From assembly GCF_020297485.1 (NCBI RefSeq), contig NZ_JAIWZC010000001.1, positions 2,418,001 through 2,482,000 on the forward strand: a stretch of DNA of 64,000 bases, read 5' to 3'. Shown here piece after piece: positions 3,121-43,723 of this stretch; within the stretch, counting starts at the first letter, position 1; each line of letters starts with the position of its first letter. A model generated the notes under the pieces. The model was not told the DNA's origin. It did not search any database and worked only from the letters and a program-made list of their open reading frames with translations. The stretch is from Enterocloster clostridioformis (GTDB taxonomy: Bacteria; Bacillota; Clostridia; Lachnospirales; Lachnospiraceae). A program made the position numbers and the translations under genes.

Positions 3121-3126
3121 ACTTAA

Positions 3127-6512
<3,386 letters not shown>

Positions 6513-6526
6513 ATTTAAGCCGGCAC

Positions 6527-6553
6527 AGCTGGAAGAATCACATCCAGCTTTAT
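6527..6553 (+). terminator. Possible weak terminator after the bgl operon
   Basis: A seven-base stem (AGCTGGA 6527-6533 with TCCAGCT 6543-6549) followed by TTTAT lies 15 bases past the bglA stop. The U-run is short, so termination efficiency is doubtful. Confidence 0.35.
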
Positions 6554-6708
6554 CGGGCATCTTCCAAAATACATGCAGGATGCGCTTTCTGATGCTCAGT
6601 CGGCTGCCTGAAAGCTATTTTGTGTTCTAAAGTATTGAGTTTTCAAGGAACAATCCCATTTTAGCTATGGGAAGTTTGAGTTATTTCATTTGACTGCAAA
6701 TTTGATTG

Positions 6709-6741
6709 TAAAAGAACCCCTGACCATATTGGCCAGGGGTT
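6709..6741 (-). terminator. Terminator of the giant LPKTG protein gene
   Basis: AACCCCTG (6715-6722) pairs with CAGGGGTT (6734-6741); on the minus strand the hairpin is followed by TTCTTTTA. It lies 45 bases past the stop of the large surface-protein gene. Confidence 0.75.
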
Positions 6742-6786
6742 CCTGTTATACTGCTATTTTGTTTTTACATTGACTGTAATGGACCG

Positions 6787-12700: not shown

Positions 12701-15700
12701 GAGACACTCCTGTAATACAATTTTAATACAGTATTATTATCACTAACTGCCGCGCTCGAATACTCATAATTTAATGCATATTCTTTAAGACTTGATACAC
12801 TCTTCAGATCGGTATATATGATATATGTTTCACCATAATACCCCTCTATCTTTGTATTTTGCAGATTTCCATTACGTACATACCCGTTAAAATCAGTTCC
12901 TTCTCTTGTAAGTACGCCTAACGTAGAACTCTCCAACTCTCCTGTCAAAGGCTGACCATCTTCAGTTAAATACTGTATCTGCAAATTCGCTTCATTCGGT
13001 TTAATATAAATTCTTACTGTTACCGTCTGACTTGATTCGGTCCATCCAACGCTAAACCCATTTTCCCAATTAATTTCAACATTGTCGACAGTTACCTTAG
13101 AAACGGAATATGCGTTATCCAAATTAGGCGTAATATATATACCGCTTACTCCCGGATGTTTATCATGATAACTCGTCAATGATGATCCCATACTATTTCC
13201 GCTTAGTTCATCAATTAATTCATATTCAATTTTTCTTGTATTGTCATTACTATTCTCCCACCAATCGGACACAGCAATTTCAACCTGCTTCGCCAATTCT
13301 GTTCTCTGTAGGTAATAAAAAACTAATTGATCAGTTGCGGCAAAGTCTTTCCAACTTCCAGAAGATGTATAATATTGGATATTTTCGTTAAAAAACCTTA
13401 ACCTTTCGATTCTTTGCCCATTTTCTACACGGTTAATGCCTGCATTATTCGTTTGATGATAGTTTGCTGGAAGCACTCTGGCATGCCAAAAAATAAGTTC
13501 ATCATTCTCTCTTGTTCCTGTAGATGGAGCAATCTCGTCTACCGGCACACCGCTGTCTCCATACTGTGACAGGTCTGTACTGCTGATATTCTTTGACTGC
13601 TGTCCGTCCGAACCTGTAACTTCACGATTAGTAATCCAATACTCTGCATTAATGCCAGATGTATCTGTCACTATTATTGTATAGGAATATTCTCGCCCCC
13701 AACTACTAGCTGCCCTTACCATGGCTGTTCCTGGCTTAAGTCCAACTATCTCAATACTATTCCTATTCTGAGTACTGCCGCTTATAAAGCTAATAACATC
13801 GGAACCTGAAGTAACGCTCCAATCAGCATTTAACAGCGTATTTCTATTATTCTCATTATAAAGAGTTAATTTTTCACCAACGGCAATAGTGGTCGAATCA
13901 TACTGTTTATTACCGCTCACAACCGCATAAATAGTAAAATGCTCAGCCTCAAAGGAAATCTCGCCAACTGTCTGTTCTCCTGGAACATCCACTGTATCGC
14001 TTACAGTCTCAACCTTTACTATATCTTCTGGAGCAATTTCACTTTCCTGGGCGGCTGCCTTTTCTTTCTCTTCCTTATTACTATCCTGCACGGTTTCAAC
14101 ACATACAACCTCAACAACATCGGCCTCTGCACTCTGTTCTATAATCGGCTTACCTGTGAATGTAACATTTACAAGCCGACTTCCACTCCACATCTCAGCA
14201 TCAAGAAGTTTGTCTCCAAGCCACAGATTAATATCATAAGCCATGACTGAAGATACATTCTTTTTGGTATCAGCACTGATTATCTCCTGAACAGCTGTTT
14301 CTACATTATCATTGACGCGTACAGCTGTAGCTCTTACTCCTGCTGGCAACACCCCTTCTTCCGCCACTATGTGGATTACCATTCCGTCATCCATCACAAG
14401 CTCTGCATCAAAAGCCGGATGTATATCAGTTTCCACCGTATAGACTTCAACCTCCTGCTCCTCATAAACTTCTGGAACAGTATACCACGCAGTCTGCGAA
14501 CCATCCTCATTATCAGCTATCGAGTCAGCTTCCAATACTTCTCCATTAGCCGTAACACTCTCAACCGCAAATCCAATCTGATTCTTAACTCCAAAGGTTA
14601 AACTCTCTCCTTCTTCCACACCTCTGGCGCCATCCACGATACGTGCACCAGCTCCCGGATTAATGGAGTAAGTAATTTTGTAACCATCAAAGTCATCCAA
14701 AGCCTTCAACTGATTAATCGTAGTGGTATAAACCTTTGCAGTACTGCAATACCCCATACCAACCAAATCAGTTGTTGATGCTTTATTAACTGTCTCTTCC
14801 GGCTTAACCTCCGGTTTCGTAACATCGGAAGGGGTTCCTACCTGAACTTCTTCGGTTGCAGCGGGTGTTTCCGCTGCATCTGTCGTAGTCTCAGGAGTCG
14901 TAGTCTCGTCACCCTCTGACGGAGCAGCTGTAGTTCCCTCTGTGGTTGTTTCACTCGGGTCTGTGCTCTCCCCTGCCTCGGCAGTAGTTTCATCCGATGC
15001 AGCCGCTGGGGATTCTTCCTGTTTTCCTTCCTGTGCTTCCGTAGTACTTTCAGTCTCTGCTGGTGCTACCGGCTCTGTCTCTTTTTCTGTCGGAGCCTCT
15101 GTTTCCTTAACAGCTTCTGTCTTTTCTTCCGGCTCAGCTTCAGGTTCCTTAGCTTCTTCAACTTTTGGAGCTTCCTCAGCATTACCTTCCTCATTATCAG
15201 CTACTACCGGCGCATAATGACGGATGATGGATGCCACTGGCTCACCTGTTGCCGCTTCTGGCTCGGCTGCTTCCGGTTCAGGCGCATCTGCTTCTGCAGC
15301 CTCCTGAGTTTTTTCCTCAGTTGTTTCCGGAGCATCCGTTGCTTCTTCTGTCGTCGCTTCCTCTGTGGCAGCCGCTTCTGTAGATGTCTCAGTCACACCT
15401 TCTGTCGGAGCCGTGCTTCCCTCTTCCGGAGCAGTCGTCTGTTCCTCTCTTGGCGCATCCGTAGACTCACTCTCACCCGGAACAACTGTGGTGGTTTCAT
15501 CTACCGTTCCTTCTACGGTTGGTACTGTGGTATCAGGAGCTATGGTTTCCTCAGTGCCTGGTCCATTGACATCTTCCGGTGCAGTGGCTGTAGTCTCCTC
15601 CACTGGCTTGGAAATGTAATTAATCTCCTCATCACCATATGCCGCTTCAAAGCTCTTTACAGTAATTCTCTTGGTCTTTTTAACCTTTTCTACGCCATTC

Positions 15701-23169: not shown

Positions 23170-24171
23170 TTAATACGTGCGGAATCCGGCACCTTCCATA
23201 ATATCCAGATCCCGGAACACAGCTGCCGCCGCTGCCTCGTATTCTTCCAATCTCTGTGATTTCTTTATTCTCTTAATGTATTTCCCATTGTCGGAAAAAA
23301 TCTGAATCATACAGGTCCACAGCTCCTTCATCTTAAACAGGACATTTCTGTCCCCGGACATGATTGTCCGGTAGCCTTCGTATATCATCTGGTGGAATTG
23401 CCTTAAGGTTTCTTTGCCGGTTCCCGCCCCACCGGAATCTGCCCCTGCCGCAATTCTGTCCAGCAGTCCGGGATTGGATATGATTCCACGACCCAGCATG
23501 ACTCTATCCAATTCCGGATAATCTCCGCATAATGTCTCGTAGCCAGATACAGTAAATATATCCCCATTATAACACACCGGAGCCCGGCTGCCGTCAAACC
23601 CGCTGCCAAATGCCGGCATGTTCGGGGTGTTTTTATAGTAATCCGTGCGGACTCTGGGATGGAGAATTAATTCCTTCAGCGGATAGCGGTTGTAGATTTC
23701 TAAAAGGCCCGTGAATTCATCCGGCGATACCAACCCCAGCCTCGTTTTAACAGACAGTTCCATACCCATCCCTTCCATCTTCCCGCATACCTCGTCCAGA
23801 AACCGGTCCAGGCTGTCCGGCAGCCCCAGGAAACCGGCTCCTTTATACTTGGACACCACGGTACCGGATGGGCAGCCCAGATTCAGGTTTATCTCAGAAT
23901 ATCCGTATTCCTGTAATTCCTTTGCCGTTCGTATAAAATCCTCTGCCTGGTTTGTGAGTATCTGAGGGACTACGTACATGCCCTGGTTGTGTTCTGGCAG
24001 AATGTCGTTTAACTCCCGGAAGCTTAGACTGCTGTTGGCCTTTGGGGACAGGAAGGGAGTGAAGTACTTGTCCATGGGATGATAGCAGGCGTGGTACGCG
24101 TTGCGGTATATATAGCCGGTGAGGCCCTCCATGGGCGCCATGTAATATTTCATTTTCATATCAGATATCAC
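23170..24171 (-). CDS. tRNA-dihydrouridine synthase family protein
   Basis: A 333-residue FMN-dependent Dus enzyme that reduces uridine in the tRNA D-loop. Visible motifs are APMEGLTGYIYRNA at the start, INLNLGCPSGTVVSKYKGAG with the catalytic Cys, VKTRLGL, ILHPRVRTDYY, YNGDIF and MLGRGIISNPGLL. The start is GTG 24171, which overlaps the stop of the upstream 1078-residue gene (GTGA), with GAGG nearby; ATG 24159 is an alternative. This overlap implies translational coupling to the HD-GHKL ATPase. Which Dus subfamily and which uridine cannot be told. Confidence 0.9.
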   Translation of the reverse strand: MISDMKMKYYMAPMEGLTGYIYRNAYHACYHPMDKYFTPFLSPKANSSLSFRELNDILPEHNQGMYVVPQILTNQAEDFIRTAKELQEYGYSEINLNLGCPSGTVVSKYKGAGFLGLPDSLDRFLDEVCGKMEGMGMELSVKTRLGLVSPDEFTGLLEIYNRYPLKELILHPRVRTDYYKNTPNMPAFGSGFDGSRAPVCYNGDIFTVSGYETLCGDYPELDRVMLGRGIISNPGLLDRIAAGADSGGAGTGKETLRQFHQMIYEGYRTIMSGDRNVLFKMKELWTCMIQIFSDNGKYIKRIKKSQRLEEYEAAAAAVFRDLDIMEGAGFRTY

Positions 24172-27100
24172 TCAATCCTCAAAAAATCACTGCCCTTTAA
24201 GTCAATATCATTGGGCACCCTCACCTTACACCTTGATATCATCCTTAAATTCTGTAATATTTTATTGATTTCTGCTGTCATTATATCCCCATCCTCCTCC
24301 CGCAGGCATTTAATAATTGCATTCAGACTTCCCCTGTAACTCCTTTCTAATTCTATGGCATTATCTGTCAGCCATCGTGAAAATGGATGGCTGGCATTGA
24401 TTATATTTCGGCCTATGCTGTTTTCTTCCGTCAAAATGCGGCTGTCCGCCTCATCTGATTCCGCAAATAACAGAGGAGGAAATACAAGTTCGCTTTCCGT
24501 GAATCCATCTTCCCTCAACCCTATGGCGTACAAAGACATACTGCATCCGTTACTGCTCATTTTACACTTCAGTCTGCAATTCTTTTGGACCAATGCCCGA
24601 ACTATGTTTTCATCCGGTCTGTTTTCAATTTCAAAAGAATTACTGTGAGACAGTGAACCTGTGTTTAAGCATATGCCATTATCTTCATCGTTCTCCTTAA
24701 GCATGGTCTTTAATTTTTCAATTGTCAGATTTATCCCGCACAGATAAACCGATTCCGCCGCCTTGGAAAACTCAGCATTATTCAATAATATCAAATACTC
24801 ACTTAAAGGACAGTTATCATAATATCCTATCTGTCCATAATCCAGTTCTGTTCCCGGAAGCCGGCGTTCCAATACAGACAGGTATCCCATGGTCTCCACG
24901 GAAAAGTGCTTAACACGTTCCCTGCTCATATTCAACATCGGTTTAAACCTTCCCTGTAAAAGTACGATTGTATAATTAACCCATTGTCTCAACCAGCTGT
25001 AGTCTGACCAATTCCAGTTAACTTTAATTCCGTTATAGGCTGTGACGGACACCCCGTTTATGCCCCTTTCCCTGCCCTCCATATAGTGATACATATATTT
25101 TTCAGCTAACCTTTTCAGCTGAGGATTTCTCTCCAGGGGAACCGAAATGTTTACTGTGCTGCGATTTGAAAGTTCTGTCCTCTCTAACCCATTATATATC
25201 TCCAGCCCTCTGTTTACTATTTCCTCCAGTTCATCTGATGCAACATCCCCGTCATTGCCGTTCAATTCCTGCAGCAGCTGTTCTTTGCTGTATTTCTTCG
25301 TCTGAAGCATTTCTCCGCATTGTCTGTGGATATGGCTTATATCTTTATATTTCTGAAACATTTCTTTTACAACTGACTCAAGGCCGCCTACATTCAAGCC
25401 GCTGTCACTGACACCATCCCAGTGCATTTCATATGACATAAGTATATGCAGCATTTTATTCTCAAAACTTATCTCCTGGTTCAGAGAACGTCCCACCCGG
25501 ATATCTCCTATCCTGAAATCCAGGTCATGCGCAAGCTCTCCATCAACCGTAATCAGAAAGGTGCCGCCCCTTATAGAAGGAACAGGTACATAGTCCTGAA
25601 TATTCCTGCATTCCAGGACAATTTCCGGCCTTTTAACCCAGCATATCTCTTTGAAACTCCGGCTTATATAATCTATCTCCTCATCTGTAAACGGAATCCG
25701 AATCACCTGGTTTGCTTTTATGTCCTCAATCAGTTCCTCCGCCATAGGAAAATAAATCGTCTCATAGCTGTCCTTATACACAATGGGCACGTCCGGGAAA
25801 AGCACATAATCCTTCACGATGTTCTTTACGCTGCCGCTATTCCCGTGACGAAATAAATTCATCCTAACCGCAATGGATGTTCCCGGTGTCTGACGGAACG
25901 GCTCCCGCCCGGATTCATCCATGGATGGCATCATTTCCCCGGTATCTCCATTTTCCTCATCTGCAAGGCTATAATACCCGCTGGTGCCAATCATACCGAA
26001 ACGGATTCCGTGGCCCTCCTTATAGTGTCTTGTGCTTACCTCTATCCTGTCTCCGCATAAGAAACACGACAGGATTCCGATACCAAACTGGCTGATTGGT
26101 TTATAGTCATAGTAATCCTTATTTCTGTAATACCCCTGATAAAATTCAGGAGATGTATAGTAAGAGCGGCCAACCTTTAAAAAATAATCCAGAATTATCT
26201 TCTCAGTCATACCAATCCCATTATCGTCCACCCTCAGCCAATCATTCCCATCCGGATCCATCCATGTGGTAATTACAACAGACGGCTTTTCCTTCATCCA
26301 ACTGTCAAAACCGTAATTCCTGTCAAGCATTCTGCGGGTACCAATGGCATCCAGAGAATTCTGCAGCAATTCACGGATAAACACCGCTGAATGGGTATAT
26401 AAATCATTTCCCACCAAAAGCTCAAGAACCCGCTCAGAATCCATGGTTAAGTGGTATTCCCCGGTCCGATATCCATTACTCTCAATTCCGCTTCTGTCAA
26501 TCTGGATTGGCAGGGCAAGGTTTCTCCATCTGTCAGAGCAGTTATTGCTTATTACCTCGGAACAATTCCTCAGCTCTAAATCTATATAGTCCAGGAACAT
26601 ATGAATAAAGTGTTCTGTCTGCATGCTGTTGCTCACGGCTCTAAACGCAAGGGCGTCCCTGCTAGCCTGTTTGGGATACCTGAATCCCAGTGACGACTGA
26701 TGCTTCCTCCACTCAATTACAGACTGACGGTCCTGGGCATCTTCGATTTTCTGGTATTCATATAGAATTTCCGGACTTCTGGTCACGTCGAAATCCAATA
26801 TGTCCCCCAACCGCAGCAACACGGCACAGAAGCAGTAATCAATCTCGTTGAAATTGTCGTATGGTATTTCTTTTACCCTTTCGATATTCTCTCCATGGCT
26901 TTGGCATACTTTAATCAGCCTGTCCCTGCGGACATTGGAAACATCCAGGGAGTCTTTCAGAATCTTTGCAATTCTCTCATGGTGAATGCTCCTGAAAAAA
27001 TCAACCTGAATCTTTGCCGGTATTTCCCCCTCATTTTCAAACATTAGGACATCCGCAGACGGATGCTGTTCCAAATACCGTTTGAATCGGATACTGTTTA

Positions 27101-27404
27101 ATTCCGACTGTTTTTCCTGTTTTGAGTAACACATGCCTATATCATGATAACATGCCGCCAATAAGAGAAGTTCGGTTTCCCCTTCAGTTAACTTCCCGAT
27201 TCCCTCTTCTCCCAGTAAATTTTCTATTGCGTGTATAACGTTGACAACATGTACTTCGTCATGCAGGGTATAGGTGGGAAATGTATCCCGTACTGTTTTT
27301 AACATGGTAATCGCCGCGTCGCATAAGGATTCCATGGCATGCTGATTCTTTACGCTTATATTTCCTTCCAGTTTCTTCCATAATAAAGTATCTTTATATT
27401 TCAT
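24168..27404 (-). CDS. HD-domain plus Hsp90-like (GHKL) ATPase protein
   Basis: A 1078-residue cytosolic protein of unknown function. Residues about 20-240 look like an HD phosphohydrolase fold: H48-D49, H87-D88 in CYHDIGM, HHER near 140, and LRLGDILDFD. A GHKL ATP-binding domain follows: N-box ELLQNSLDAIG near 342-352, G1 VDDNGIGM near 391-398, and FGIGILSCF near 438-446, as in Hsp90/MutL/MORC proteins. The remaining 600 residues show no recognised domain. The region is AT-richer than the neighbouring housekeeping genes. The gene overlaps the Dus gene by four bases. Similar HD-ATPase proteins are poorly described; a stress, RNA-related or defence role is only a guess. Confidence 0.85.
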   Translation of the reverse strand: MKYKDTLLWKKLEGNISVKNQHAMESLCDAAITMLKTVRDTFPTYTLHDEVHVVNVIHAIENLLGEEGIGKLTEGETELLLLAACYHDIGMCYSKQEKQSELNSIRFKRYLEQHPSADVLMFENEGEIPAKIQVDFFRSIHHERIAKILKDSLDVSNVRRDRLIKVCQSHGENIERVKEIPYDNFNEIDYCFCAVLLRLGDILDFDVTRSPEILYEYQKIEDAQDRQSVIEWRKHQSSLGFRYPKQASRDALAFRAVSNSMQTEHFIHMFLDYIDLELRNCSEVISNNCSDRWRNLALPIQIDRSGIESNGYRTGEYHLTMDSERVLELLVGNDLYTHSAVFIRELLQNSLDAIGTRRMLDRNYGFDSWMKEKPSVVITTWMDPDGNDWLRVDDNGIGMTEKIILDYFLKVGRSYYTSPEFYQGYYRNKDYYDYKPISQFGIGILSCFLCGDRIEVSTRHYKEGHGIRFGMIGTSGYYSLADEENGDTGEMMPSMDESGREPFRQTPGTSIAVRMNLFRHGNSGSVKNIVKDYVLFPDVPIVYKDSYETIYFPMAEELIEDIKANQVIRIPFTDEEIDYISRSFKEICWVKRPEIVLECRNIQDYVPVPSIRGGTFLITVDGELAHDLDFRIGDIRVGRSLNQEISFENKMLHILMSYEMHWDGVSDSGLNVGGLESVVKEMFQKYKDISHIHRQCGEMLQTKKYSKEQLLQELNGNDGDVASDELEEIVNRGLEIYNGLERTELSNRSTVNISVPLERNPQLKRLAEKYMYHYMEGRERGINGVSVTAYNGIKVNWNWSDYSWLRQWVNYTIVLLQGRFKPMLNMSRERVKHFSVETMGYLSVLERRLPGTELDYGQIGYYDNCPLSEYLILLNNAEFSKAAESVYLCGINLTIEKLKTMLKENDEDNGICLNTGSLSHSNSFEIENRPDENIVRALVQKNCRLKCKMSSNGCSMSLYAIGLREDGFTESELVFPPLLFAESDEADSRILTEENSIGRNIINASHPFSRWLTDNAIELERSYRGSLNAIIKCLREEDGDIMTAEINKILQNLRMISRCKVRVPNDIDLKGSDFLRIE

Positions 27405-31104: not shown

Positions 31105-34100
31105 TCACATACCATGCAGCAGCGCCTGCACAATCAGATATTGGTCTTTGCCGTAGCAAGTTGAAAGCGTTATAAGTTTCTCATCCCCTTCTGGAATGAT
31201 TCCCGTCTCATAGAGGGACGCTGCCCCCATTTTCTCAAGATAGGGCAGCCACTCCTCCTCCATAAAGTTAGTGCCATAGGCTCCGGCGTCGCTCTGATGA
31301 CGGAGCTGACAGGAAAAAATGGGACATTCCAGCCACTTTCCCCTGTAAAATACCTGTATGACAGGATTTTCCCGAAAAAAAGCTTCCTCGCCATATTTTT
31401 TCAAATCAGCAAACATACTTCCGTCCTTCATGTTATGCCCATACAGCACCGTGTTGTCCACAGCCAGGGGAACAGCCGAGGAATCCGCAAAAACGCAGCC
31501 TGATATATGCTGTTCCTGATAAAAGTTATGATTCAGATAATATTCGTTATCTTCATGCCGCACCACCGGATAATCAATTTCGGTTCCAGGTACAGACAGC
31601 CAGAACTGGTATTCCGGATTGATGGAAACCAGGGCCGCTTCATTCAGGTCAGGCTTTCCACAGGCAGAATTACCTTTAGGGTTTTCCTTCCCGTCAGTAT
31701 ACCTCACCTCATCCGAGTATCCCTCTCCATTAACATCCACCGCCTCAGCAGCATATCCTTCCCGGATTTCCTTCACTTCCCTTCCATAAGCCTCATCCTG
31801 TACCATACGATACCCCCTGCGCCCATCAGCATAGTCCAACCCCGTCTTAACCAGAAAACGCAGGCTGAACACAACTCCCGCGAAGAACATGAACATAGCC
31901 ACCGCCATACCATACGGTCTTGTCCGCTTAATCATAGTCAGAGCCACGGCTGCAATCAATACCACAGAACAAATCCCAACTACAAACGCAGTTATCCCCG
32001 AAAACAGCGGCCGCACACTGTTTTTAACAACATACCTCTCGTCAATCCCTGAATATCCAATCTGTCCGCTCTCGTCATCCCCTTCGATGTCATCCAGAAA
32101 TACGCTCCTGCTAATCTCCCCTCCATAAACTGCTGTGCAGTCCGCAACCAATTTACGTCCGACCGCTGTCAAATTTCGGCACAGCACCCCATCCTTCTCA
32201 TAAATCTCACCATTCCACTGGAATTGCTCAATCCTGTACGCTTCCGAATCCAGGCCTGCCTGACTTAAAATTTCCGTCTCATGGCTTGTCAGGCTCTCCC
32301 TAATATCCTCCTTCCGTGCTTCAATCCTCACCCCGCCAACTTCATAAAAACCTGCGTCATAATCCGCCACCGTCAAATCCAGCCGGAACCCGTCCTCCCA
32401 ATGTTTATCAGAAAAATGATAACTTACCAGTGGCAGCAGAACATTCCGTTCCTTTCCTGATATATCGTCTCTGGCTAATATCCAGGCGGTTTGCGGGACA
32501 GGCTCTATGTCTTCCATAGAGGTATATATCATCTTCCCTGAGACAGATAAGGTATCCGTTTCCTCCGCCATCACATCAAAGGCCAGATAAATTGTTATGG
32601 GTATCAAAATCAGAATAAATACCATCCATTTCCTGCCCTGACTCCATTCCTTCTTTCGTTTCATACGCAGACACATACTAAAGCCCGCCACACATAAAAC
32701 TGTCATTGCTGCTGCCGCTGCCACGGGCAGGTCGTCTCCGGTCCTTACCGTATCCCTGTGGCCGGACCCAAAATGATATGTTCCTTTTCCAAACCGGTTT
32801 CCCGCTTGATACACAGCTGTAATGCTTCCTATTTTCCTGACCGGCGGCTTTTCCTTCCAATTATATATAATTATTCCGTCCTGTGTGATTATACCATCCT
32901 GCATCACCGCACCGTCCTGCGTCATTGCTCCACCCAGTATCCGCCCCACCGCATCCAGTGTAAACTCGTATACCTCATCAGCCAGCTGATATCCCTGAGG
33001 TGCCTCTGTCTCACGAATGACATACAGGCCGGGTGTTGCTGAATGATAAGTAAATGTACCGTCCGCGCCGGTTACAGCTTCGGTTCCCCCCTCGCCCTCA
33101 GTCTCCAGCCCCTTATCCGCAACACCGCTTACTCCTTTTTCGATCCTGAACCTGGCTCCCATAAGAGGCAGGCCGCTGTCTCCATCCAGCTTTGTAATTG
33201 TAAACTCCAATTCCTTATCCACAACCTCATATGTACCCCTTATGACATCACTGCCATTGACTGTAAAACTGAATATGTCTGGATTTAATGCATATCCGTT
33301 TGGCGCCTTTGTTTCCCGGAAGGTGTATGTACCATTTTCGGGCCTTCTTATGCGGAACGTTCCTGTGCTGTCGCTGACAGAGGTACCGATTGCCCGGCCC
33401 GTCTGGTCATAAAATGTGAATTCCGCCCCCCGGAGTACCCTTCCGGAAACATCTGTTTTCTTAAATGTAATGTACTCCACCTTTGGTCTTGGCCTGTTGC
33501 CTCCGCCGGATGAGGATGCTGTCCGGTTCTCAAACCGGAATACCTGAACCATATTGTGCAATACCTTATCATCCCCCCGGCCCATTTCCGGTCCCTCTGT
33601 CCCGGTCCAGTCTTTTACCACAATTTCCCGATCCTCAGTCCTCTCATATCCGGATGGGGCCTGAAGTTCATGGATGATATATGTGCCCGGTTTCAACCCG
33701 TAAAAACGCTGTCCGCTTCCTGCCTCGGATGTCCACTCCCGGACCACCTTTCCGTCAGACTTATCAATGAGCTGCAATCTGGCGCCTCCCAGCAGGTTTC
33801 CTGTTTCCGCCGACGTCTTTTCCACATCTACGATGGTTGTATAATTGCGCATAACCAGACGGGGAATCTCGGTCATTCCGTCCCTGATAGTAAATTCGAC
33901 AGGAGTTTCCTGCAGTTCATATCCCTCCGGCGCTTTCACCTCAACCAGACGGTATTCTCCTGCACTCAGATTCTTTGTATAATGCCCCTGCCTGCCGGTT
34001 GTCCATTCTTCCGCTGTCTTCCATCCTGATTCTGTCCTGCGCTCGATTCTGAGTACTGCGCCTTCCAGCATTTCCTCTGTATCACCTGACAGCTTGTCCG

Positions 34101-37100
34101 TAACTACCCGGTTGGTGTCGTTGGCGGGGTTATATTCACAGACAATGATGTCTGTCAGCTCATTCCTGTAATGAAATTGGAATTCATACGGTTCAAGGGT
34201 CAGCATGTGCCCGGGGGCTGCCTTTGTCTCACTGCACACATAGGTATAGGGTTTAAAATTCCCATCCCGGTCCACATAGCCAATGGGTTGTGGACCAAAC
34301 TGCGCCTGTCCCTGCTGGTCCGTGGTTACGGTACCGCATATGGAGCCCGTTGTCTGGTTCACCAGGCAAAACTCTGCTCCCTGCAGTTTTTCATCCGGCT
34401 GGTCCGAATCACTTTTTATAATACGGAGAATTCCATCCGGGATTTCATCTGTCATTTCTGTTTTTTGCAGTATCCGGCTGTCCGTAATAGTAAAGGGAAT
34501 ATCTACCGACTGCAGAAATCCGTACGGAGTTGTTATCTCCCTGAGGATATAATCACCTTCCGGGATGTACTCCAATATATGAGGTTTTAAATCCCCTGGC
34601 TGAAAACCTGGCGGGATAAGCCCTTGGTACTCATCCTCCTTCGTGTACCTTCCGTCCAGTCCCGAAATCCAGACCGCCTCAATATCCTGATATTGTCCAT
34701 CTTCTGAGGGTTGGTGGAGCACAAGAGGCATTTCCGATACATTTCCCCTTTCATCCACCGGATAAATGGCAAGTTTTGCACCGTTTACCTCCTTACCGCC
34801 GGTGATATCCGCCTTGGAGACCTCCAGTTCAAGCGGCTTATCCCCCATCTTAAAATATTGTATCTCTTTCAAGTGCCCTTTTTCTTCTATATTAATAAGT
34901 ATGGGGTCCGCTGTGGCATAGCCCTCAGGATTTTCTGTCTCTGCCAGCACATAATTTCCTACAGGCAGATACTCCAGGCGCACGGTCCCTTGCTCCGTAT
35001 AATAATACCGTCCCTGATATGTGCCGGGAATTTCCCGGAAATCATAATCATACTTTATGATTGGATGATTTCCGCCTGCGTCCGGGACCACGCGGCCTGT
35101 GGCCGCCACCTCCTGACCATCCTTATATGTAGCGGCCCGGAATGTGAATATCCTTCCCGTTTCATCGTACCTGGGAATTCCATTTTCCAGCACCGGAAAT
35201 CCCTTTTCATCCAGTATTGGACGGTATAAGGTCAGGTACGCTTCGCTGTCCCCGTAGATTACATCACCATTTCTTGTGTCGTATTTCAGAATATCAATGG
35301 ATGTAAAATCATCCTCCATCTCAAAGCTCTGAACATCCCCTGTTTCCAGTACGTCAATATTCACCGCCTCTGACTGAACATATCCCTGTTCATAAGGACA
35401 AATGGTTTCCTCCAGTACATAATATCCAACTGGAATGTGGTCAATCCAATGGGGTTCTGTTGTCGTTACAGGTTCCCCGTGTTCATCCATCTTCATGTTT
35501 CCGTTATCATCGTACTGGTATCCGCTAATCCATGAGGCATAGACCTGGCCTTTTTTGTATATGCCATCCTGCTCCTTAAGGGGGGATCCGTCACTGTCCA
35601 GACCGGCCCGGTACAGGGTCATGACCGCTCCTCTTACCTCCTTCTGGGTCCGCACATCCAGCTTCGCAAAGGCAGTTTTGGTAAATTCATTCTGCATGAA
35701 ATATTTCTGTACCTCGTCTGTGTCCCTGAGTATAAGCCCCATATGCCTGGCCTGGATATATCCCTGATCATAGGGGACGCCCTGCTCTTCAAGTATATAG
35801 GCGCCAAAGGGCAGGCGGGCAATCGAATGTCCGGCGCCGGACGTTTCCGGAGTTCCGTAAGAGTCCATGCTGTTGTCTGTTGTCCAGGACTCATCCTTTG
35901 CCGCTACGTTTTTGCCTGTATAATAGATGGGCAGTCCATTTTCATCATCCACTGTTGTTTTATTCTCATAAATCGTCTGTCCATTTTCATCCTTCCGTAC
36001 CTGTATGGATTTGACCAGTATCTTATTTCCCTCATCATCCACTGTGTATGCCAGCATACGTCCATAGTCATCATAGACATATGCCATGCCGGTGACGGAA
36101 TCCGCGAAACACAGCGGATTCCCTTTTTTATCCAGCACCAGCAGCTCTCCCGTATCCGGGTCTTCCCTGGTATCCACCTGATTCAAATCATAGAAATACA
36201 GATTTACCGGGGCATTATCCACAATGACGGTATCCCACACATTCCACGAGGCCTTATGTGTTTTCATGGCGTTACCCGGACTGTTTTCCTCACCAACCAC
36301 ACGTATTTCCTTATGAGTACCGGTATTTGTATCCGTAATCCCCGTTACCCTGCCGTCCTTGACAGTAGCGCTTACGCCCTTATAGACATGTTCCCCCGTT
36401 TTTTCAATTTCTATGGCATGGTACAGGGACAATCCTGCGCCGGATACGGAAATGTCAAAGCGGATTCCCCTGCCTGAAAAGGTACCGTCTGGCAGATACA
36501 GCGGTTTTACGCCGGGCATGGCCTTTAGCGCCTTTTCCGTCCCCTCCACTATATGTTCTGAGTATTCGTCAAATGGCTTAGTCACATACCCATCCCACTG
36601 CATGGTTTCCGGATTGTAAACAATATCTCTCACATCCCCCCGTTCCTCCAGCTTTTCCTTACGGCCGCTTACCTTATAAGCCAACCGGTCCCCGGCGTCA
36701 TTGACCGTGACATTTTCCTCAAAACCTCCGCTTGTTTCCGCCATGCCCTGTGCATCGGTCTTCTGAAGGATGTTCTGGTTTCCCACCAGGGAATCCCCGT
36801 CCTCCACTTTATGAATTTCCATCCTGGAAGGATAGTCCTCCACCTTTATCCGGCTGACAGTCCGGGTCCGGACTTTATTGGTACTGCCGGCCACTGGAAT
36901 GGCATACTGGTATTTCACAGCCGTATCCTCTTCCCATCCATCCGTGGTTCCGTCCGTATTTCTTTTTTCCCTGTAAAACGATACGCTGTCCGCGTACACT
37001 TCAAACGCCACCGGACGGCTCTTTACATACCCTTCCGGGGCCTGGATCTCCACCAGCACATAGGCGCCTGCTCCCAACGGCTTATACGTCTCAATGTATC

Positions 37101-40100
37101 CCACCGGCACCTTTTTCACCTGACCGTCTATAACTATTTCCCTGATTGTGGAGTATGCCCTGAAAATTCCTGTCTCATTCCCCTCCTGGTCCTCCTGCCT
37201 AATCAGCTGGCTTTCATCATACTGCGGGATCCCTTCCTTATCCAGACGCACAGGCAGGTCGTCCGTACTCCCATTATTCTTACCTACTCTCGGATACAGA
37301 ATCCTCTTCCCGTCTGCATCCGTCACGGGATTTCCCCTCCAGTCCACAGCCTCGCCGTACAACACATTTCCGGACCCTGCGACCGTGCTCATTCCCTTTT
37401 TCTCCACATCCCTTTTAGCCGCATATATCTTAAACAATGCGCCGTCATGGATAATGGAATCGCCTGTCTCGGAATCCAGCTTCTCAATACGAAGTCTGGA
37501 ATTATAATACTCGTCCTCAAAATCCTCCTGGGCAAAGGCCACGAAATTAAAATCCCCGCCAGTTCCGGAGGGAATCAGAGTCTCCACATTTCCCGTGTCC
37601 GGATTGATTCTGTCCACCGCGGGAGGCAGCACGGTCCACGGAACCAGCATAGAGGCAAATTTACCGTCTATGGCTGTCTGCATCCCTTTCATCGCTGCCA
37701 CCTGGTCCCTGACTTCCATCTGTCCGTCTGCTGTTTCATATCCGTCATAGACCACCCCGTCCATGATTCCGGCGTCTTCGCTCTGGGAGGTATATCCGGC
37801 ATAATATCCCTTTACGGCATTATTTCCGCCATCCATATATTCTTCTTCATAGGGTGCTTGGGATGTCAGGCTGCGGCCCGGCCGCACATCCTTATCCAGG
37901 CCGTATTTATATATCTCGAATCTTCCATCCTGTCCATTGGCCTGTATGATATGGGTCTCCTCATTGAAACGTATTTTATATTTGCGGATCAGGTCTTCCG
38001 GCGTATCCGTGCTGTCATACCGGAAATAGGGACTGCCTGTCTGATAATTGACATCCGCTTCCCCCGTGCCCTCATCCCGGCCGATATCCGGCACAAACGG
38101 AAGGGTGATCTCCCTGGGATAGTCCCTGGTAAAATGCCGGTTTGCCAGCTCCCTGTCCACGTCCGCGGGAACCTGCTCCACGATAACGTATGTGCCATAC
38201 GCAAGCATGATGGAATGATTGTAATAATCATCCTTCCCATTCCTGGTGTTGCATTGCAGTGTGGTCACATCATTGTCAGCCCCTCCGCCAGCGTCGCTGT
38301 CCCAGGCAATGGCCAGCCTGTCATCCAGTCCGGTAAAAACAGACAGATAGCTCCCGGCCTCTTTCACAGCCCGAAGTAGCGCCTTTTCGTAGGCCGCATC
38401 GCTGTTAAGTCCAGGTTCCGCCGCAAGAATTTCCATTTTATAGGTATCTATATCATAGTAATCCACAGCAAACTGCCGTATCGCCTCCTGCGGCTTTTTC
38501 CCTTTTTCCACCTGCACTGCCGCGTACATGGCGTCAAAGAATTTTGTGTAATCATAGCTTCCATCTTCTTTTGTTTCCAAAAGCCGCTGTCCGTTTCCGT
38601 CCTTAGGAGGCAGAAAGATTTTCTGGACATCTCCTTTAAAATCCGCTGTTCCTATATCTTCTGAAATGATGCTGCCAGCGCTGTCCACAAAGATATTTTC
38701 CAGATTACTCTTCAGATATGCCTTGAATTTAAACTGACTCAGCAGCTTTGCGCCCTGGGAACTGCCGTCTCCCTTAAATAAACCCAGCAGCACGGTCAGC
38801 GGGTCGTTGTGGACAGCTCCGTATGTATTTACGCCGTCATAGGATGACTGGGAAATATCTTTTGTGACCTTTACGGACTGCTTGATGACTCTCTGCAATA
38901 CCAGCAGCGGACCAGAACCAGTACCGGCTTCCTGCACCGGCTGATTCTGCCCCGGATAATTCAAAGCCTGGAATACTACATAGCTTCCTTCATCCAACGG
39001 AGGAACCGCAGCAAAGGCGCTTACCCCGACTCCAGCTATGTCTGTCAGGTACTGGCTGTAAGGCAATTCCTCCCCTTCCCAGTCAATGGATTTCTCTTTT
39101 GTCACCACCCGGAATTCCGTATATACCGGCTCTGTCCTGTCACTCCAGTCCATGGAATTCTCCACATGAATCACATAGCTCCCCGTGGCCCCATCATAAA
39201 CAGCAGAAACCGGCTCCAGCTTATCTGTTTCATATGTTTCTGTTCTGTCTTCATACTCATAGACACGCTCCAGGAGAGGAATGGGATTCCCCTCCCTGTC
39301 AAGGACAATATCCCCTTCTCTGTAAGTCTCATACAGCGGCTGATACACGGTTTCGGCCGCAGCTTCTATATTGCTCCCAAAAGGAATGGCCGTGTTTATT
39401 TCCCGTTTTTCTCCTACTGACACAACGGCGCTTTTCAGGCTGTATTCACCCTTTTGATACTCAATCCAGTAACCAACCATCCCGGCCAGCCCCCCTGACA
39501 CCTCTGCCGTTTTTCGGACATACAGTTTACGGTTCACGGAGTCATAGACCGCGGGGAAGGCGGCATCGGCCAATGAATAATCATGGCGCAGCAAAGCAAA
39601 GAAACTACCCTCCATCTCATATATATCCTCCACAGACCCGCAGTCAAAGAAGTTATGGACCGTGTACCAATCCATGATTTCCTCTGCCGCCTGTGCGTTG
39701 GTCTGGCCCGAAAGCCGGATTTTTGTCCACGGCGAAGTGTCTGAAACCGGTCTGTATCCAATCTGTTCCAACATGCCATTAATCTGTTCTGACAGATAAT
39801 GTGGTTCAATGGCCTGTCCCCATTTACTCATATCAGCCGGTACAGCCGTACCGCTGGGATATGGGGCTGTCCTGAAACGGTAGGGCAGGGTCTCCCCATA
39901 GGGAATCCGCTCCTCCGTGCCACTGCCCGTAGCAGTATCCGACCGGATAATGGGATTACCGTCAGTCCCAATCTTATACTCACCTCCTTTTGCCGTCTGA
40001 TAGACAGGGCGGCCCTGGTCATCTACTTTCATCTGAAGGGAACTTCCCAAAACCGCCCTGTACGTTTTTGTCTCTGTTCCTGTTTTTATTTCATAAAACT

Positions 40101-43100
40101 CCGCCCCCTGGGGATATCCGGTCAGGGTGATATCATATCCATTTTCAGTTTTGTAGCTCTCTACAATAAAATTATTCCAGGAGCCGTCTGCATCCATGGA
40201 ATTATAATCGGACAAGCCGCCTGATATGCGGGCCTGTCCGGCCTCATGTATCCTGCTGACCGCATCCTGAGTCCGGTTGCTTTCCTTTAAGGAAATGCCG
40301 CTGACAGACAATTCATATCCCTCTGACCTGCTAAGCTCCATAACATAATAGCTGCCCATAATAAGGGGCCGCCCAATCCACTGTTCTCCATTTAAAGACA
40401 CATAGTCGGGATAAACATCTGTGCCGAATCCCTGGTCCGATGAGGTGATGGACGAACCATTATAAAGATTTTCAGGTCCGGCGGCATTCTCCGGTGATAT
40501 TATGTTTCCGTCATCATCCAGCCTGGACCCTGGTTTTTCCGTGTATGCCAGGAAAGAGGCATTTCCCTGTTTATCCGTGGCGGCTACGGCTGTCAAATCA
40601 TTCTGGTTATAAACAGTACCTGATTTGCCATCCGGGTGAATGATATCCTGGGCCGCAAACAGGCCATAGACAGCGCCCTCCAGTGTGGCATCCCCCTGGG
40701 TCAGTCCGTAACTTCTGTCCCCGTCCGCGCGGTGCAGCTCTAAGTCCCTTTTATTGATGTGCAGCCTGCCCTCTGTCCGATGATTCCAGACCTTAAAGGT
40801 GTAGAGTATAGTATCCGGTTTCCCATAGCCCGATACATCCATGGATCCCAGGTCATCGTCCATAAACGACGGCAGGGACACGGTTATGGAGTCGTCGTCA
40901 TCCTCTTCTCCTGAAAACAGGGACCTGATAAACCGCACTGCACGGTTTTCTTCCCCATCCGGTTCTCCGGTATCTTTCTCAGTGTCTTCCAGGAAATATT
41001 CAAATTCAACCGCGCCATAGGATGGTGAGACTGGCTTTCTGGCATATTCATATTCTTCATATATTTCACTTTGAACGCCATCCTCTCCATCCCTATCACC
41101 TTGAACGGCTCTGCTCTGATTTTCTTTATCAGAATTCCTCTCAGCTTCATCCAGGATATCCGCGGTATCTGTGGTGTTGTCTTTTATGTCCTGCATATCC
41201 TTATCTGTGCTGTTTTCTGTGTCCTCATCTATATTTTCCCTTGCAATGCCGTTTTTCTGAGTTTCCGTATCTTCTGGTTTCTTTTGGGTTTGATGTTTGA
41301 AATTATCTGTGTGTGCTTCTGATGAAATGCCGGAAAATAGAATGGTTCTCCCATGTCCTGATTTTAATAGATTTGGTGGTGGGGACACCGGCGATTTGGC
41401 CTGAAGATTCCCGTTTTTATCCGCCTCACTTTCCTGACTTTCATTGCCGTCCTCATCCTGCCCCCCGTTTCCGGGTGTGCCTTCATCCTCCCCTTGTGTT
41501 CCATCTCCATCCTCCTGTTCCCCCGCGCTGCCGGAAGCATTTTCCTGTTCCTGAGAAATACCGCCGTCAACGGCTTCCTTTAACGGAACATCTGCCTTCT
41601 TCTTTTCCTTCTTATCTCCCAATAGGCTGAATATACTGCGCTGTTCCTCAAGCTCCATCTCCTGACCATCCGGAACCGGATATTTGTAAGACCTTCTTTC
41701 TCTCATTGCCGCCACATACGTGTATACAGGCTCAATTGCCTTTCCCACAAACGAGCTGGGCCTATATACAGCTGCACGGGCATTTCCTCCCGCCTGGGCG
41801 GATGACAGCAGGACATTTTCTATCTCCTTGTCATCGCTGTGCTTTCCGTGGAGAATATATCCTGTCCGCGCCGTCTTTTCCTGTAAATGATAACTGTACT
41901 CCAATTCTATGAACCGTTCATATGTCTCATCCCTGTCCGCCAGCATGGCTTCCATAGCCGATGTGTCCTGTTCACGGTTATCCTCATCATGGTTCGGGGC
42001 ATGGAAATCGCATGTGGCTGCGCACAATTCCTGTTCTGCCCTCCACTGCCCGCGAAGCCGGTCATTTTCCTCATCACAGCTGCAATCCTCATCCTCCTCG
42101 TGGTCGCATTCAATCCATTCCGGGGCAGGATGGCCCATGCAGTATGTTTTGCTGTAATTATAATATCTGGCATCGCTGTGCCTGGCATATCCATCTGTAT
42201 CCGTGGTCAGGATGTCACAGATATAATTGTTTTCCGGTTCCGGCGACATGCAGTTTATATAGACCTGTCCGCTGGTCCCATCCGGTTCGCCTTCCTCATA
42301 CCCCTGCTCATTTACCTGGGAAAAATCAAAATCTTCCCACACGTTGAATACAGTTCCCTCTAGCGGCTGATTCGTCTCGGCACAATATTTCTCCAAATCG
42401 ATGTTATAAGTGCTCTCAAATGTTTCAGAATGGCGGTATAACTCCAAATTACCGCTGCCCGGCATGACCGCATCTGTTCCAACTGAAAAGGAGACAGATG
42501 CCATGGGGCGGCTAAAATCCAGCCATCCCAACTGCTTCTGAAAGTTTTCGGAAGCGGCCGGGGTAAATATATAAGCGTAAAAGCGGTTTTCGATTCCCTG
42601 GATTTGTGCAGACTCAATTGTTCCCTGGGGTTCCTGGTTTCCATTGTACTGAAATGTCACACTTCTGCCATCCGGCGCCAGTTGATATGACCACTGATTA
42701 TCCGGAAAGGACCAGGAAGCACTCTGAAGCTGCGGACAGCTGCTGATATCCAATGTTAGCTCATAATGTCCGTCTTTCAGGACCATTTTCTGGACAGAAC
42801 CAGCCCACGCAGGCAGTAAAGAACTGCCCGTACCATTATACTCGGCTTCCCCTTCCAGGATGTGGGCCTTCATTTCCTCAAAATAGGCCATAACCATGGG
42901 ATCCCCATTCATTACTGCCTGGAACTTTTCCATGGCCTGCTTCTGCAATGCCCAGTTATGTTCATATCCATTCATGCATCCCCAGTAATAGACCTGGACG
43001 ACCCCATAGCGCGCCGGAACATAATAGTTATCCGATACCAGCCACTCATAGGCAAGCACCATGGGCAGATAACGCTCAAACGGCCCAATGACGGGAACCG

Positions 43101-43395
43101 GCTTCCCCGGCTCCACATAATATTGCTCATATTTCGCCGGACTTCCGTCCGGAAGTTTGTGGCCTTCCTGTATGCATAATGCCGGCAGGGCTCCCGCGCC
43201 TTCCCCCACCTGGTAAATGTTCATATCCCGGTGTGTCCTTCCAAATGCATTCAGGTTCTTACCCCGGAACACCTGGCGGTATGGGTTCAAATTAATTAGA
43301 TCCCCGGCTCCGCTGGTGGTCCGTACTGCCGTACATACCAATACTGTTGCAAGAAATAACGCCATCACGCGTTTCAATGTATTCCTTATCCTCAT
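31105..43395 (-). CDS. Thioester/Cna-B adhesin fused to a class B sortase
   Basis: A single 4096-residue reading frame. Signal peptide about 1-28. An N-terminal thioester domain has C74 (ALCIQEG) and Q134 (VVQVYYWG), the expected cross-link pair. Residues about 585-775 are acidic low complexity. Many Cna-B/SpaA-like modules (E-x-x-APxGY endings such as ETKAPNGY, EIQAPEGY) run from about 320 to 3530. A wall-sorting-like VRTGDDLP, helix and KRKK stand near 3546-3580. Instead of ending, the chain continues: helix (about 3590-3605), a 190-residue outer domain, two helices (3800-3850), then a SrtB-like domain with LYGHNM near 3985 and STCYG near 4078. The usual catalytic Arg (R-F/Y-V-V) reads Q-Y-L-I-V. 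ATG 43395 has GGAGGAG upstream; GTG 43425 is an alternative. Confidence 0.9.
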   Translation of the reverse strand: MRIRNTLKRVMALFLATVLVCTAVRTTSGAGDLINLNPYRQVFRGKNLNAFGRTHRDMNIYQVGEGAGALPALCIQEGHKLPDGSPAKYEQYYVEPGKPVPVIGPFERYLPMVLAYEWLVSDNYYVPARYGVVQVYYWGCMNGYEHNWALQKQAMEKFQAVMNGDPMVMAYFEEMKAHILEGEAEYNGTGSSLLPAWAGSVQKMVLKDGHYELTLDISSCPQLQSASWSFPDNQWSYQLAPDGRSVTFQYNGNQEPQGTIESAQIQGIENRFYAYIFTPAASENFQKQLGWLDFSRPMASVSFSVGTDAVMPGSGNLELYRHSETFESTYNIDLEKYCAETNQPLEGTVFNVWEDFDFSQVNEQGYEEGEPDGTSGQVYINCMSPEPENNYICDILTTDTDGYARHSDARYYNYSKTYCMGHPAPEWIECDHEEDEDCSCDEENDRLRGQWRAEQELCAATCDFHAPNHDEDNREQDTSAMEAMLADRDETYERFIELEYSYHLQEKTARTGYILHGKHSDDKEIENVLLSSAQAGGNARAAVYRPSSFVGKAIEPVYTYVAAMRERRSYKYPVPDGQEMELEEQRSIFSLLGDKKEKKKADVPLKEAVDGGISQEQENASGSAGEQEDGDGTQGEDEGTPGNGGQDEDGNESQESEADKNGNLQAKSPVSPPPNLLKSGHGRTILFSGISSEAHTDNFKHQTQKKPEDTETQKNGIARENIDEDTENSTDKDMQDIKDNTTDTADILDEAERNSDKENQSRAVQGDRDGEDGVQSEIYEEYEYARKPVSPSYGAVEFEYFLEDTEKDTGEPDGEENRAVRFIRSLFSGEEDDDDSITVSLPSFMDDDLGSMDVSGYGKPDTILYTFKVWNHRTEGRLHINKRDLELHRADGDRSYGLTQGDATLEGAVYGLFAAQDIIHPDGKSGTVYNQNDLTAVAATDKQGNASFLAYTEKPGSRLDDDGNIISPENAAGPENLYNGSSITSSDQGFGTDVYPDYVSLNGEQWIGRPLIMGSYYVMELSRSEGYELSVSGISLKESNRTQDAVSRIHEAGQARISGGLSDYNSMDADGSWNNFIVESYKTENGYDITLTGYPQGAEFYEIKTGTETKTYRAVLGSSLQMKVDDQGRPVYQTAKGGEYKIGTDGNPIIRSDTATGSGTEERIPYGETLPYRFRTAPYPSGTAVPADMSKWGQAIEPHYLSEQINGMLEQIGYRPVSDTSPWTKIRLSGQTNAQAAEEIMDWYTVHNFFDCGSVEDIYEMEGSFFALLRHDYSLADAAFPAVYDSVNRKLYVRKTAEVSGGLAGMVGYWIEYQKGEYSLKSAVVSVGEKREINTAIPFGSNIEAAAETVYQPLYETYREGDIVLDREGNPIPLLERVYEYEDRTETYETDKLEPVSAVYDGATGSYVIHVENSMDWSDRTEPVYTEFRVVTKEKSIDWEGEELPYSQYLTDIAGVGVSAFAAVPPLDEGSYVVFQALNYPGQNQPVQEAGTGSGPLLVLQRVIKQSVKVTKDISQSSYDGVNTYGAVHNDPLTVLLGLFKGDGSSQGAKLLSQFKFKAYLKSNLENIFVDSAGSIISEDIGTADFKGDVQKIFLPPKDGNGQRLLETKEDGSYDYTKFFDAMYAAVQVEKGKKPQEAIRQFAVDYYDIDTYKMEILAAEPGLNSDAAYEKALLRAVKEAGSYLSVFTGLDDRLAIAWDSDAGGGADNDVTTLQCNTRNGKDDYYNHSIMLAYGTYVIVEQVPADVDRELANRHFTRDYPREITLPFVPDIGRDEGTGEADVNYQTGSPYFRYDSTDTPEDLIRKYKIRFNEETHIIQANGQDGRFEIYKYGLDKDVRPGRSLTSQAPYEEEYMDGGNNAVKGYYAGYTSQSEDAGIMDGVVYDGYETADGQMEVRDQVAAMKGMQTAIDGKFASMLVPWTVLPPAVDRINPDTGNVETLIPSGTGGDFNFVAFAQEDFEDEYYNSRLRIEKLDSETGDSIIHDGALFKIYAAKRDVEKKGMSTVAGSGNVLYGEAVDWRGNPVTDADGKRILYPRVGKNNGSTDDLPVRLDKEGIPQYDESQLIRQEDQEGNETGIFRAYSTIREIVIDGQVKKVPVGYIETYKPLGAGAYVLVEIQAPEGYVKSRPVAFEVYADSVSFYREKRNTDGTTDGWEEDTAVKYQYAIPVAGSTNKVRTRTVSRIKVEDYPSRMEIHKVEDGDSLVGNQNILQKTDAQGMAETSGGFEENVTVNDAGDRLAYKVSGRKEKLEERGDVRDIVYNPETMQWDGYVTKPFDEYSEHIVEGTEKALKAMPGVKPLYLPDGTFSGRGIRFDISVSGAGLSLYHAIEIEKTGEHVYKGVSATVKDGRVTGITDTNTGTHKEIRVVGEENSPGNAMKTHKASWNVWDTVIVDNAPVNLYFYDLNQVDTREDPDTGELLVLDKKGNPLCFADSVTGMAYVYDDYGRMLAYTVDDEGNKILVKSIQVRKDENGQTIYENKTTVDDENGLPIYYTGKNVAAKDESWTTDNSMDSYGTPETSGAGHSIARLPFGAYILEEQGVPYDQGYIQARHMGLILRDTDEVQKYFMQNEFTKTAFAKLDVRTQKEVRGAVMTLYRAGLDSDGSPLKEQDGIYKKGQVYASWISGYQYDDNGNMKMDEHGEPVTTTEPHWIDHIPVGYYVLEETICPYEQGYVQSEAVNIDVLETGDVQSFEMEDDFTSIDILKYDTRNGDVIYGDSEAYLTLYRPILDEKGFPVLENGIPRYDETGRIFTFRAATYKDGQEVAATGRVVPDAGGNHPIIKYDYDFREIPGTYQGRYYYTEQGTVRLEYLPVGNYVLAETENPEGYATADPILINIEEKGHLKEIQYFKMGDKPLELEVSKADITGGKEVNGAKLAIYPVDERGNVSEMPLVLHQPSEDGQYQDIEAVWISGLDGRYTKEDEYQGLIPPGFQPGDLKPHILEYIPEGDYILREITTPYGFLQSVDIPFTITDSRILQKTEMTDEIPDGILRIIKSDSDQPDEKLQGAEFCLVNQTTGSICGTVTTDQQGQAQFGPQPIGYVDRDGNFKPYTYVCSETKAAPGHMLTLEPYEFQFHYRNELTDIIVCEYNPANDTNRVVTDKLSGDTEEMLEGAVLRIERRTESGWKTAEEWTTGRQGHYTKNLSAGEYRLVEVKAPEGYELQETPVEFTIRDGMTEIPRLVMRNYTTIVDVEKTSAETGNLLGGARLQLIDKSDGKVVREWTSEAGSGQRFYGLKPGTYIIHELQAPSGYERTEDREIVVKDWTGTEGPEMGRGDDKVLHNMVQVFRFENRTASSSGGGNRPRPKVEYITFKKTDVSGRVLRGAEFTFYDQTGRAIGTSVSDSTGTFRIRRPENGTYTFRETKAPNGYALNPDIFSFTVNGSDVIRGTYEVVDKELEFTITKLDGDSGLPLMGARFRIEKGVSGVADKGLETEGEGGTEAVTGADGTFTYHSATPGLYVIRETEAPQGYQLADEVYEFTLDAVGRILGGAMTQDGAVMQDGIITQDGIIIYNWKEKPPVRKIGSITAVYQAGNRFGKGTYHFGSGHRDTVRTGDDLPVAAAAAMTVLCVAGFSMCLRMKRKKEWSQGRKWMVFILILIPITIYLAFDVMAEETDTLSVSGKMIYTSMEDIEPVPQTAWILARDDISGKERNVLLPLVSYHFSDKHWEDGFRLDLTVADYDAGFYEVGGVRIEARKEDIRESLTSHETEILSQAGLDSEAYRIEQFQWNGEIYEKDGVLCRNLTAVGRKLVADCTAVYGGEISRSVFLDDIEGDDESGQIGYSGIDERYVVKNSVRPLFSGITAFVVGICSVVLIAAVALTMIKRTRPYGMAVAMFMFFAGVVFSLRFLVKTGLDYADGRRGYRMVQDEAYGREVKEIREGYAAEAVDVNGEGYSDEVRYTDGKENPKGNSACGKPDLNEAALVSINPEYQFWLSVPGTEIDYPVVRHEDNEYYLNHNFYQEQHISGCVFADSSAVPLAVDNTVLYGHNMKDGSMFADLKKYGEEAFFRENPVIQVFYRGKWLECPIFSCQLRHQSDAGAYGTNFMEEEWLPYLEKMGAASLYETGIIPEGDEKLITLSTCYGKDQYLIVQALLHGM

Positions 43396-43723
43396 TTTTT
43401 CTCCTCCGGTAAAAAAACTTTGCACTACATGCCTCCTCTGTCCCGGCTGCGGGATTTCCCATCCATTATCCAGGCTCCATCGTCATTCCGCCACCAACGC
43501 CCGTTGCCAACCTGCATCCGCTGACCGGCATAAACTGACCGGCATAAACCGGCTTTACTGCCATAATTCTCTCGATGTTTTTCTTTTCGTTATTTTTCTT
43601 CCTGTTATTCTTCTTCCTGTATCCCTTTGCCCGCCGCTGCCCTTAAGTTTGTTTCTGGCAATTCATCCCTTCACCTGCAGAGGTGGGAAATTTCCGCTTC
43701 TTCTGTTAAAATGAATATTCCGG

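Follow-up and report, generated by a model that had tools for sequence, protein, structure and literature searches.

An adhesin and a class B-like sortase share one reading frame in Enterocloster clostridioformis and may form a surface polyprotein split by signal peptidase

Enterocloster clostridioformis carries a surface adhesin and a class B-like sortase domain in a single minus-strand reading frame. The gene lies in a window of 64,000 nucleotides, the whole stretch of DNA analysed here (assembly GCF_020297485.1, contig NZ_JAIWZC010000001.1, positions 2,418,001 to 2,482,000), from a genome of 5.87 Mb in two contigs. The frame, 31105..43425, is stop-free over 4,106 codons counted from a GTG; an ATG at 43395 is closely preceded by a ggagg box, and the protein is therefore taken to be 4,096 aa long. 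A 4,096-aa cluster in the protein database (P0005) has 570 member sequences. Residue numbers below are counted from the GTG (43425), and numbering from the ATG is lower by 10. Pfam searches detect nine SpaA stretches and a Sortase domain (residues 3943-4101), and hydrophobic segments lie at residues 16-38, 3565-3588, 3597-3622, 3803-3835 and 3837-3863. Along the chain, a nine-SpaA adhesin is followed by the motif VRTGDD (residues 3560-3565), a first helix and KRKK; then come a second helix, an outer domain, two further helices and lastly the sortase, in which LYGHNM is at 3994 and STCYG at 4088 (Table 1).

The adhesin part has the SpaA domains and the motif, helix and positive tail of a SpaA adhesin, and it matches profile NF033902 over part of its length at 109.3 bits (cut-off 95). 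All nine SpaA matches in a genome-wide search fall in this one protein. An earlier note on this DNA, made from the sequence without database searches, had described the adhesin as a thioester protein. We could not confirm this identity: the N-terminal region has no match to the Pfam TED family (PF08341), and hhalign comparison with the TED region of a group of 1,640-aa proteins described below gave a probability of 0.4%, albeit with a two-sequence profile. The segment does contain plausibly placed Cys and Gln residues (C44 and Q104), which are shared by the two sequences compared.

Searching a protein database with residues 3545-4106 returned 58 proteins of 2,273-4,331 aa at 31-100% identity, with Enterocloster bolteae 90B7 and E. 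hominis among the named sources. All 58 have [VIL]xTGD and 52 have the sortase Cys; six, including that of E. bolteae 90B7, are cut short by frame changes. These six (P0014, P0044, P0047, P0048, P0049 and P0056) lose the sortase end at different places, and the frame changes may reflect phase variation, decay or sequencing error. Such protein searches accept candidates of 0.55 to 1.75 times the full length of the query and score only those sharing most words with it, so that separate sortases could not be returned; they show the spread of the long form, not the frequency of sortase fusion.

Genome searches without a length limit found a single open frame encoding adhesin, outer domain and sortase in at least seven named relatives (L050 C. 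clostridioforme, L051, L053 C. citroniae, L054 C. porci, L056 E. alcoholdehydrogenati, L057 and L058) and in 12 of 17 genomes of the genus, two of the latter frames (G403:C2 and G408) being cut by a contig end. Elsewhere in the genus, the frame is broken in G404 and G407, G409 holds a contig fragment, G410 has the adhesin split from an outer-domain and sortase gene, and G401 is without this type. The open frame and its recurrence in other species show that the 4,096-residue chain reported in the earlier note is real. That note had also raised the case that all related strains carry separate genes; this does not hold, and the junction it pointed to is present in most of the genus, with one split form (G410) beside it. 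In a tree of 100 sortase domains, with several long branches flagged among the non-fused rows, the 15 fused domains form one clade (100/93). The fused sortase of G397 falls outside the fused clade in a second, smaller tree, on a long branch, and its gene may be a fusion of its own.

Apart from G119:C14, the nearest unfused relatives in the sortase tree are from Hungatella. In Hungatella L059, a separate SpaA adhesin gene with eight SpaA stretches ends at the equivalent point with ARTGDEYPL, a helix and RRAGARK before the stop, and the sortase start overlaps this stop as TAATG. The internal signal, which the earlier note had called sorting-like, is thus a sorting signal at which a separate adhesin ends exactly, and on this comparison the fusion junction is a former gene end. 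Other fusion states also occur: adhesin and sortase as separate genes (Hungatella), adhesin plus outer domain with a separate sortase (G119:C14 and G403:C19), adhesin plus outer domain with no sortase within the fetched stretch (G398:C1), an adhesin of ten SpaA stretches beside a joined outer domain and sortase (G410), and all parts in one chain, as in the window. We take these interchangeable states as indirect evidence that the adhesin and sortase products would end up separate.

Sites cut by signal peptidase I follow the −3/−1 rule, and by this rule helix 2 looks like an internal signal peptide. Homologues reduced at 90% identity gave a 14-row set for alignment with MAFFT; five short or truncated rows (P0014, P0047, P0048, P0049 and P0056) were left out, as were five rows without the pattern used for placing the sorting signal (L056, L058, P0057, P0058 and G119:C14), of which L056, L058, P0058 and G119:C14 were later placed on the cut site by eye. 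Across the 14 non-redundant homologues, A3620 is the sole invariant column among 38 (3591-3628). The best count of an Ala at −1 preceded by a small or aliphatic residue at −3 is 14/14 for helix 2, with 11/14, 7/14 and 6/14 for helices 1, 3 and 4. When the four rows placed by eye are included, 18/18 have Ala at −1 and V, A, S or T at −3, with −2 variable; helix 2 is thus an internal hydrophobic segment ending in small-x-Ala. The genome has two Peptidase_S26 genes (signal peptidase I family).

The outer domain (residues 3621-3802) matches no Pfam family over cut-off and gave no confident structural match; its dN/dS is 0.21 against L050 and 0.18 against L051. It also occurs alone, in 66 proteins with no Pfam domain except one unrelated, in one row, and a stand-alone copy lies elsewhere in the source genome (L041). 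Among the 42 of these proteins of at least 300 aa, a loose scan found an N-terminal hydrophobic segment with a cut-type site near its end in 38. In the fused chain, the signal peptide of the outer domain would come to lie inside. Because helix 2 ends in a signal-peptidase-I-type site in every aligned row, and because the outer domain when alone typically stands behind an N-terminal signal peptide, it is probably signal peptidase I, and not sortase, that separates the adhesin from the sortase. Of the 52 homologues whose end is intact, 50 have two hydrophobic segments ahead of the sortase, and a third was counted in P0054 and P0058. Adhesin and sortase are both predicted to lie outside the cell, as in the earlier note. 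We note that G397 has a stand-alone outer-domain gene overlapping its adhesin-sortase fusion (L178:2128-3396 and 3108-15311, minus strand), and that this locus adjoins genes resembling those flanking the stand-alone copy L041 of the source genome.

The sortase domain is over the cut-off of the superfamily profile PF04203 (43.5 versus 26.6 bits) and scores 132.8 bits with the class B profile TIGR03064, or 136.8 bits with the C-terminal part alone, below the equivalog cut-off of 153.75. Of the catalytic His-Cys-Arg triad, His and Cys are present and the Arg position is Tyr. Among the 15 fused tree rows, Tyr is found in the window, L050 and L051, and Arg in the other 12. Arg is also found in 71 of 72 separate sortases (not counting three mis-framed rows of the source genome), the sortase of G119:C14 having Lys, and by eye in all three other sortase genes of the source genome. 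The sortase has the lowest dN/dS of eight segments over residues 1000-4106 (0.069 versus L050 and 0.083 versus L051). Loss of Arg under the strongest constraint suggests either altered chemistry or another role for the domain, and the activity of the sortase in the window clade is uncertain from its sequence. Another unusual sortase architecture was seen at L175:4346-9058 (+), which encodes a secreted protein of 1,570 aa whose C-terminal domain is sortase-like and whose only membrane helix is its N-terminal signal.

A second type of fusion consists of 1,634-1,648-aa proteins in which SpaA domains are followed by PVPQTGDD (one has AVPQTGDD), two helices and a sortase. A protein search under the same length limits found 543; in the best 120 of these, to which all figures refer, every protein has the motif, YGHNM, Cys, Arg and two helices, 119 have the Pfam TED domain, and there are nine distinct C-terminal 330-residue ends. 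Annotated 'class B sortase', they occur in C. innocuum, Coprococcus and an M. gnavus metagenome-assembled genome (MAG). Ten of their sortases, all with Arg, form a separate clade in the tree (100/100). Frames of 1,644-1,670 aa with this sortase were found in at least five of 397 genomes of the family (G262, G176 twice, G067, G028 and G013). When 295 genomes of the order were searched with the sortase part (E 1e-30), the matches listed include G028 in such a frame and G473 in a frame of 1,362 aa, the others listed being in frames of 237-525 aa, as long as a usual stand-alone sortase or slightly longer. Fusions of this type were also noted at L042:2437-7392 (+) and in L043-L046, from several genera, and the type is perhaps mobile.

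We consider it moderately probable that the gene encodes a surface polyprotein which is split by signal peptidase and which consists of an adhesin with its sorting signal, an internal signal peptide followed by the outer domain, a membrane anchor of two helices and the class B-like sortase. The full chain would be exported by Sec, and signal peptidase I would cut after A3620 to give two products one to one: an adhesin precursor that is retained by its sorting signal, and a membrane protein of outer domain and sortase. The sortase would then cut VRT|G and attach the adhesin to the wall, acting either in cis or on a neighbouring chain; it would be dedicated to this protein, to which all SpaA matches of the genome belong. 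This wall-joining step is the least certain within the window clade, because the catalytic Arg is Tyr there. Several observations weigh against the polyprotein proposal. The Arg position is Tyr in 42 of the 58 homologues, with Arg in 10 and none in six; the predicted cut site is drawn from the −3/−1 rule plus conservation; and the fused G397 and the outer-domain and sortase gene of G410 have one helix between outer domain and sortase, the wrong parity, with which the sortase would sit inside the cell.

An assembly or sequencing artefact that joined two genes might be suspected from L052 and L055, in which the frame is broken in this region, L052 being covered at ∼7x and L055 having many breaks along the adhesin. 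Since their frames are broken, the two are not counted as split versions. Recurrence of the fusion in the genus and the named relatives, with the sortase end kept in 52 of the 58 long homologues down to 31% identity, together with constraint through the junction (dN/dS over 82 codons of 0.27 versus L050 and 0.24 versus L051), excludes chance and assembly error, and we give an artefact practically no weight. The same open and constrained frame argues against two products arising from an internal translation start. Residue 3601 is encoded by an in-frame ATG, preceded by AGGA at a distance of five bases, and Met is found at this position in P0045 and P0046 as well (3/14 rows including the window), but the other 11 rows lack Met here, and the closest named relatives have Val (L050) or Ala (L051); an internal start is thus highly improbable.

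More serious is the model of the earlier note, in which the tethered sortase itself cuts T|G, anchoring the adhesin and freeing the sortase with no signal peptidase step. It is consistent with the motif in all 58 homologues and the retained His and Cys, with the existence of engineered self-cleaving sortase fusions (PMC2901362), and with the 1,640-aa fusions, which have no outer domain between helix 2 and sortase and keep His, Cys and Arg in 120/120 (best 120 of 543). As stated, this model is not supported for the window, where a conserved signal-peptidase-type site lies between adhesin and sortase and the catalytic Arg has been lost, and we regard it as unlikely. It is also possible, if still rather doubtful, that in the window clade the sortase domain has lost its enzymatic activity and is kept as a membrane anchor or substrate holder, another of the three sortases of the genome anchoring the adhesin. 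Replacement of Arg by Tyr in the closely related window, L050 and L051 sortases and in most homologues would fit this, as would the three Arg-bearing sortase genes, but the constraint on His, Cys and the rest of the domain is hard to explain for a mere anchor.

Table 1. Coordinates in the window of the fused gene and its predicted parts.
Feature	Position	Strand	Remark
Whole fused gene	31105..43395	-	ATG start, 4,096 aa; GTG start at 43425 gives 4,106
N-terminal signal peptide, residues 16-38	43312..43380	-	hydropathy
Adhesin N-terminal domain, thioester identity not confirmed	42440..43305	-	
SpaA (prealbumin-like) domains, nine Pfam stretches	32944..37089	-	
Sorting motif VRTGDD, predicted sortase cut between T and G	32731..32748	-	[VIL]xTGD in 58/58 homologues
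Helix 1, hydrophobic part of sorting signal, residues 3565-3588, then KRKK	32662..32733	-	
Helix 2, predicted internal signal peptide ending ...AFDVMA, residues 3597-3620	32566..32637	-	
Predicted signal peptidase I cut A3620|E3621	32563..32568	-	
Outer domain, residues 3621-3802	32020..32565	-	
Helix 3, residues 3803-3835, predicted out to in	31921..32019	-	hydropathy
Helix 4, residues 3837-3863, predicted in to out, sortase membrane anchor	31837..31917	-	
Class B-like sortase domain, residues 3926-4106	31108..31650	-	
Catalytic His (LYGHNM)	31435..31437	-	
Catalytic Cys (STCYG)	31156..31158	-	
Tyr at catalytic Arg position, six residues after Cys	31138..31140	-	

Two other genes of the window were noted. 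A second giant sortase substrate at 6787-16179 (-), a 3,130-aa repeat-rich surface protein in which a 12-residue word occurs 20 times, has a motif different from VRTGDD: it carries a doubled LPxTG anchor (NF033073, 91.3 versus 48 bits) with LPKTG, a helix and RKRKEE. At 24168-27404 (-) lies a gene for a 1,078-aa HD-CE/ATPase-like protein, with only a weak PADLOC match.

Sortases are normally separate, multiple-turnover enzymes, and a conserved, repeatedly evolved fusion of enzyme and substrate suggests selection for stoichiometric, co-delivered anchoring. Such a fusion makes sorting in cis versus in trans directly testable, an internal signal peptide would make the product a bacterial polyprotein in the literal sense, and a strongly constrained sortase without the catalytic Arg probes how essential that residue is. 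We tentatively suggest, as a proposition rather less secure than the polyprotein itself, that a natural polyprotein delivers an adhesin and its own sortase one to one, being cut by signal peptidase and then anchored by that sortase; that adhesin-sortase chains arose independently at least twice (in Enterocloster and in the 1,640-aa type); and that the window-clade sortase works without the canonical Arg. Full-text literature searches, with most subscription papers outside their coverage, found no natural sortase-substrate fusion and gave no results on the catalytic Arg or on signal-peptidase polyproteins.

Comparison with known systems shows both parallels and departures. The window domain is similar to the solved class B sortase structure 5gyj (E 1.4e-33), which we take to be C. 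difficile SrtB, with His and Cys kept; it differs in being the C-terminal part of a 4,096-aa chain, in falling under the TIGR03064 cut-off and in having Tyr for Arg. The cytochrome b/c1 precursor FbcH of Bradyrhizobium is a polyprotein cut by signal peptidase at an internal signal, although our literature search found no paper on it. As in FbcH, an internal signal peptide is predicted to part two membrane or exported products, but those of the window are a surface adhesin and an anchoring enzyme, and no sequence relation is claimed. In SpaA/SpaH-type pilin and adhesin operons, as in the Hungatella pair, surface genes with sorting signals adjoin a dedicated class B sortase, whereas the window has substrate and enzyme in a single reading frame with an extra outer domain. 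The Spy0129 pilus operon of S. pyogenes has such an arrangement (PMC3019223), and for M. gnavus eight putative sortase genes are reported, close to which candidate substrates are encoded (PMC13121745). The engineered BISOP fusions also place a sortase and its own motif in one chain, albeit as man-made purification constructs (PMC2901362). The 1,640-aa TED-SpaA-VPQTGDD-helix-helix-SrtB type likewise has adhesin, sorting signal and sortase in one chain, but it belongs to a separate sortase clade, lacks the outer domain and keeps the catalytic Arg.
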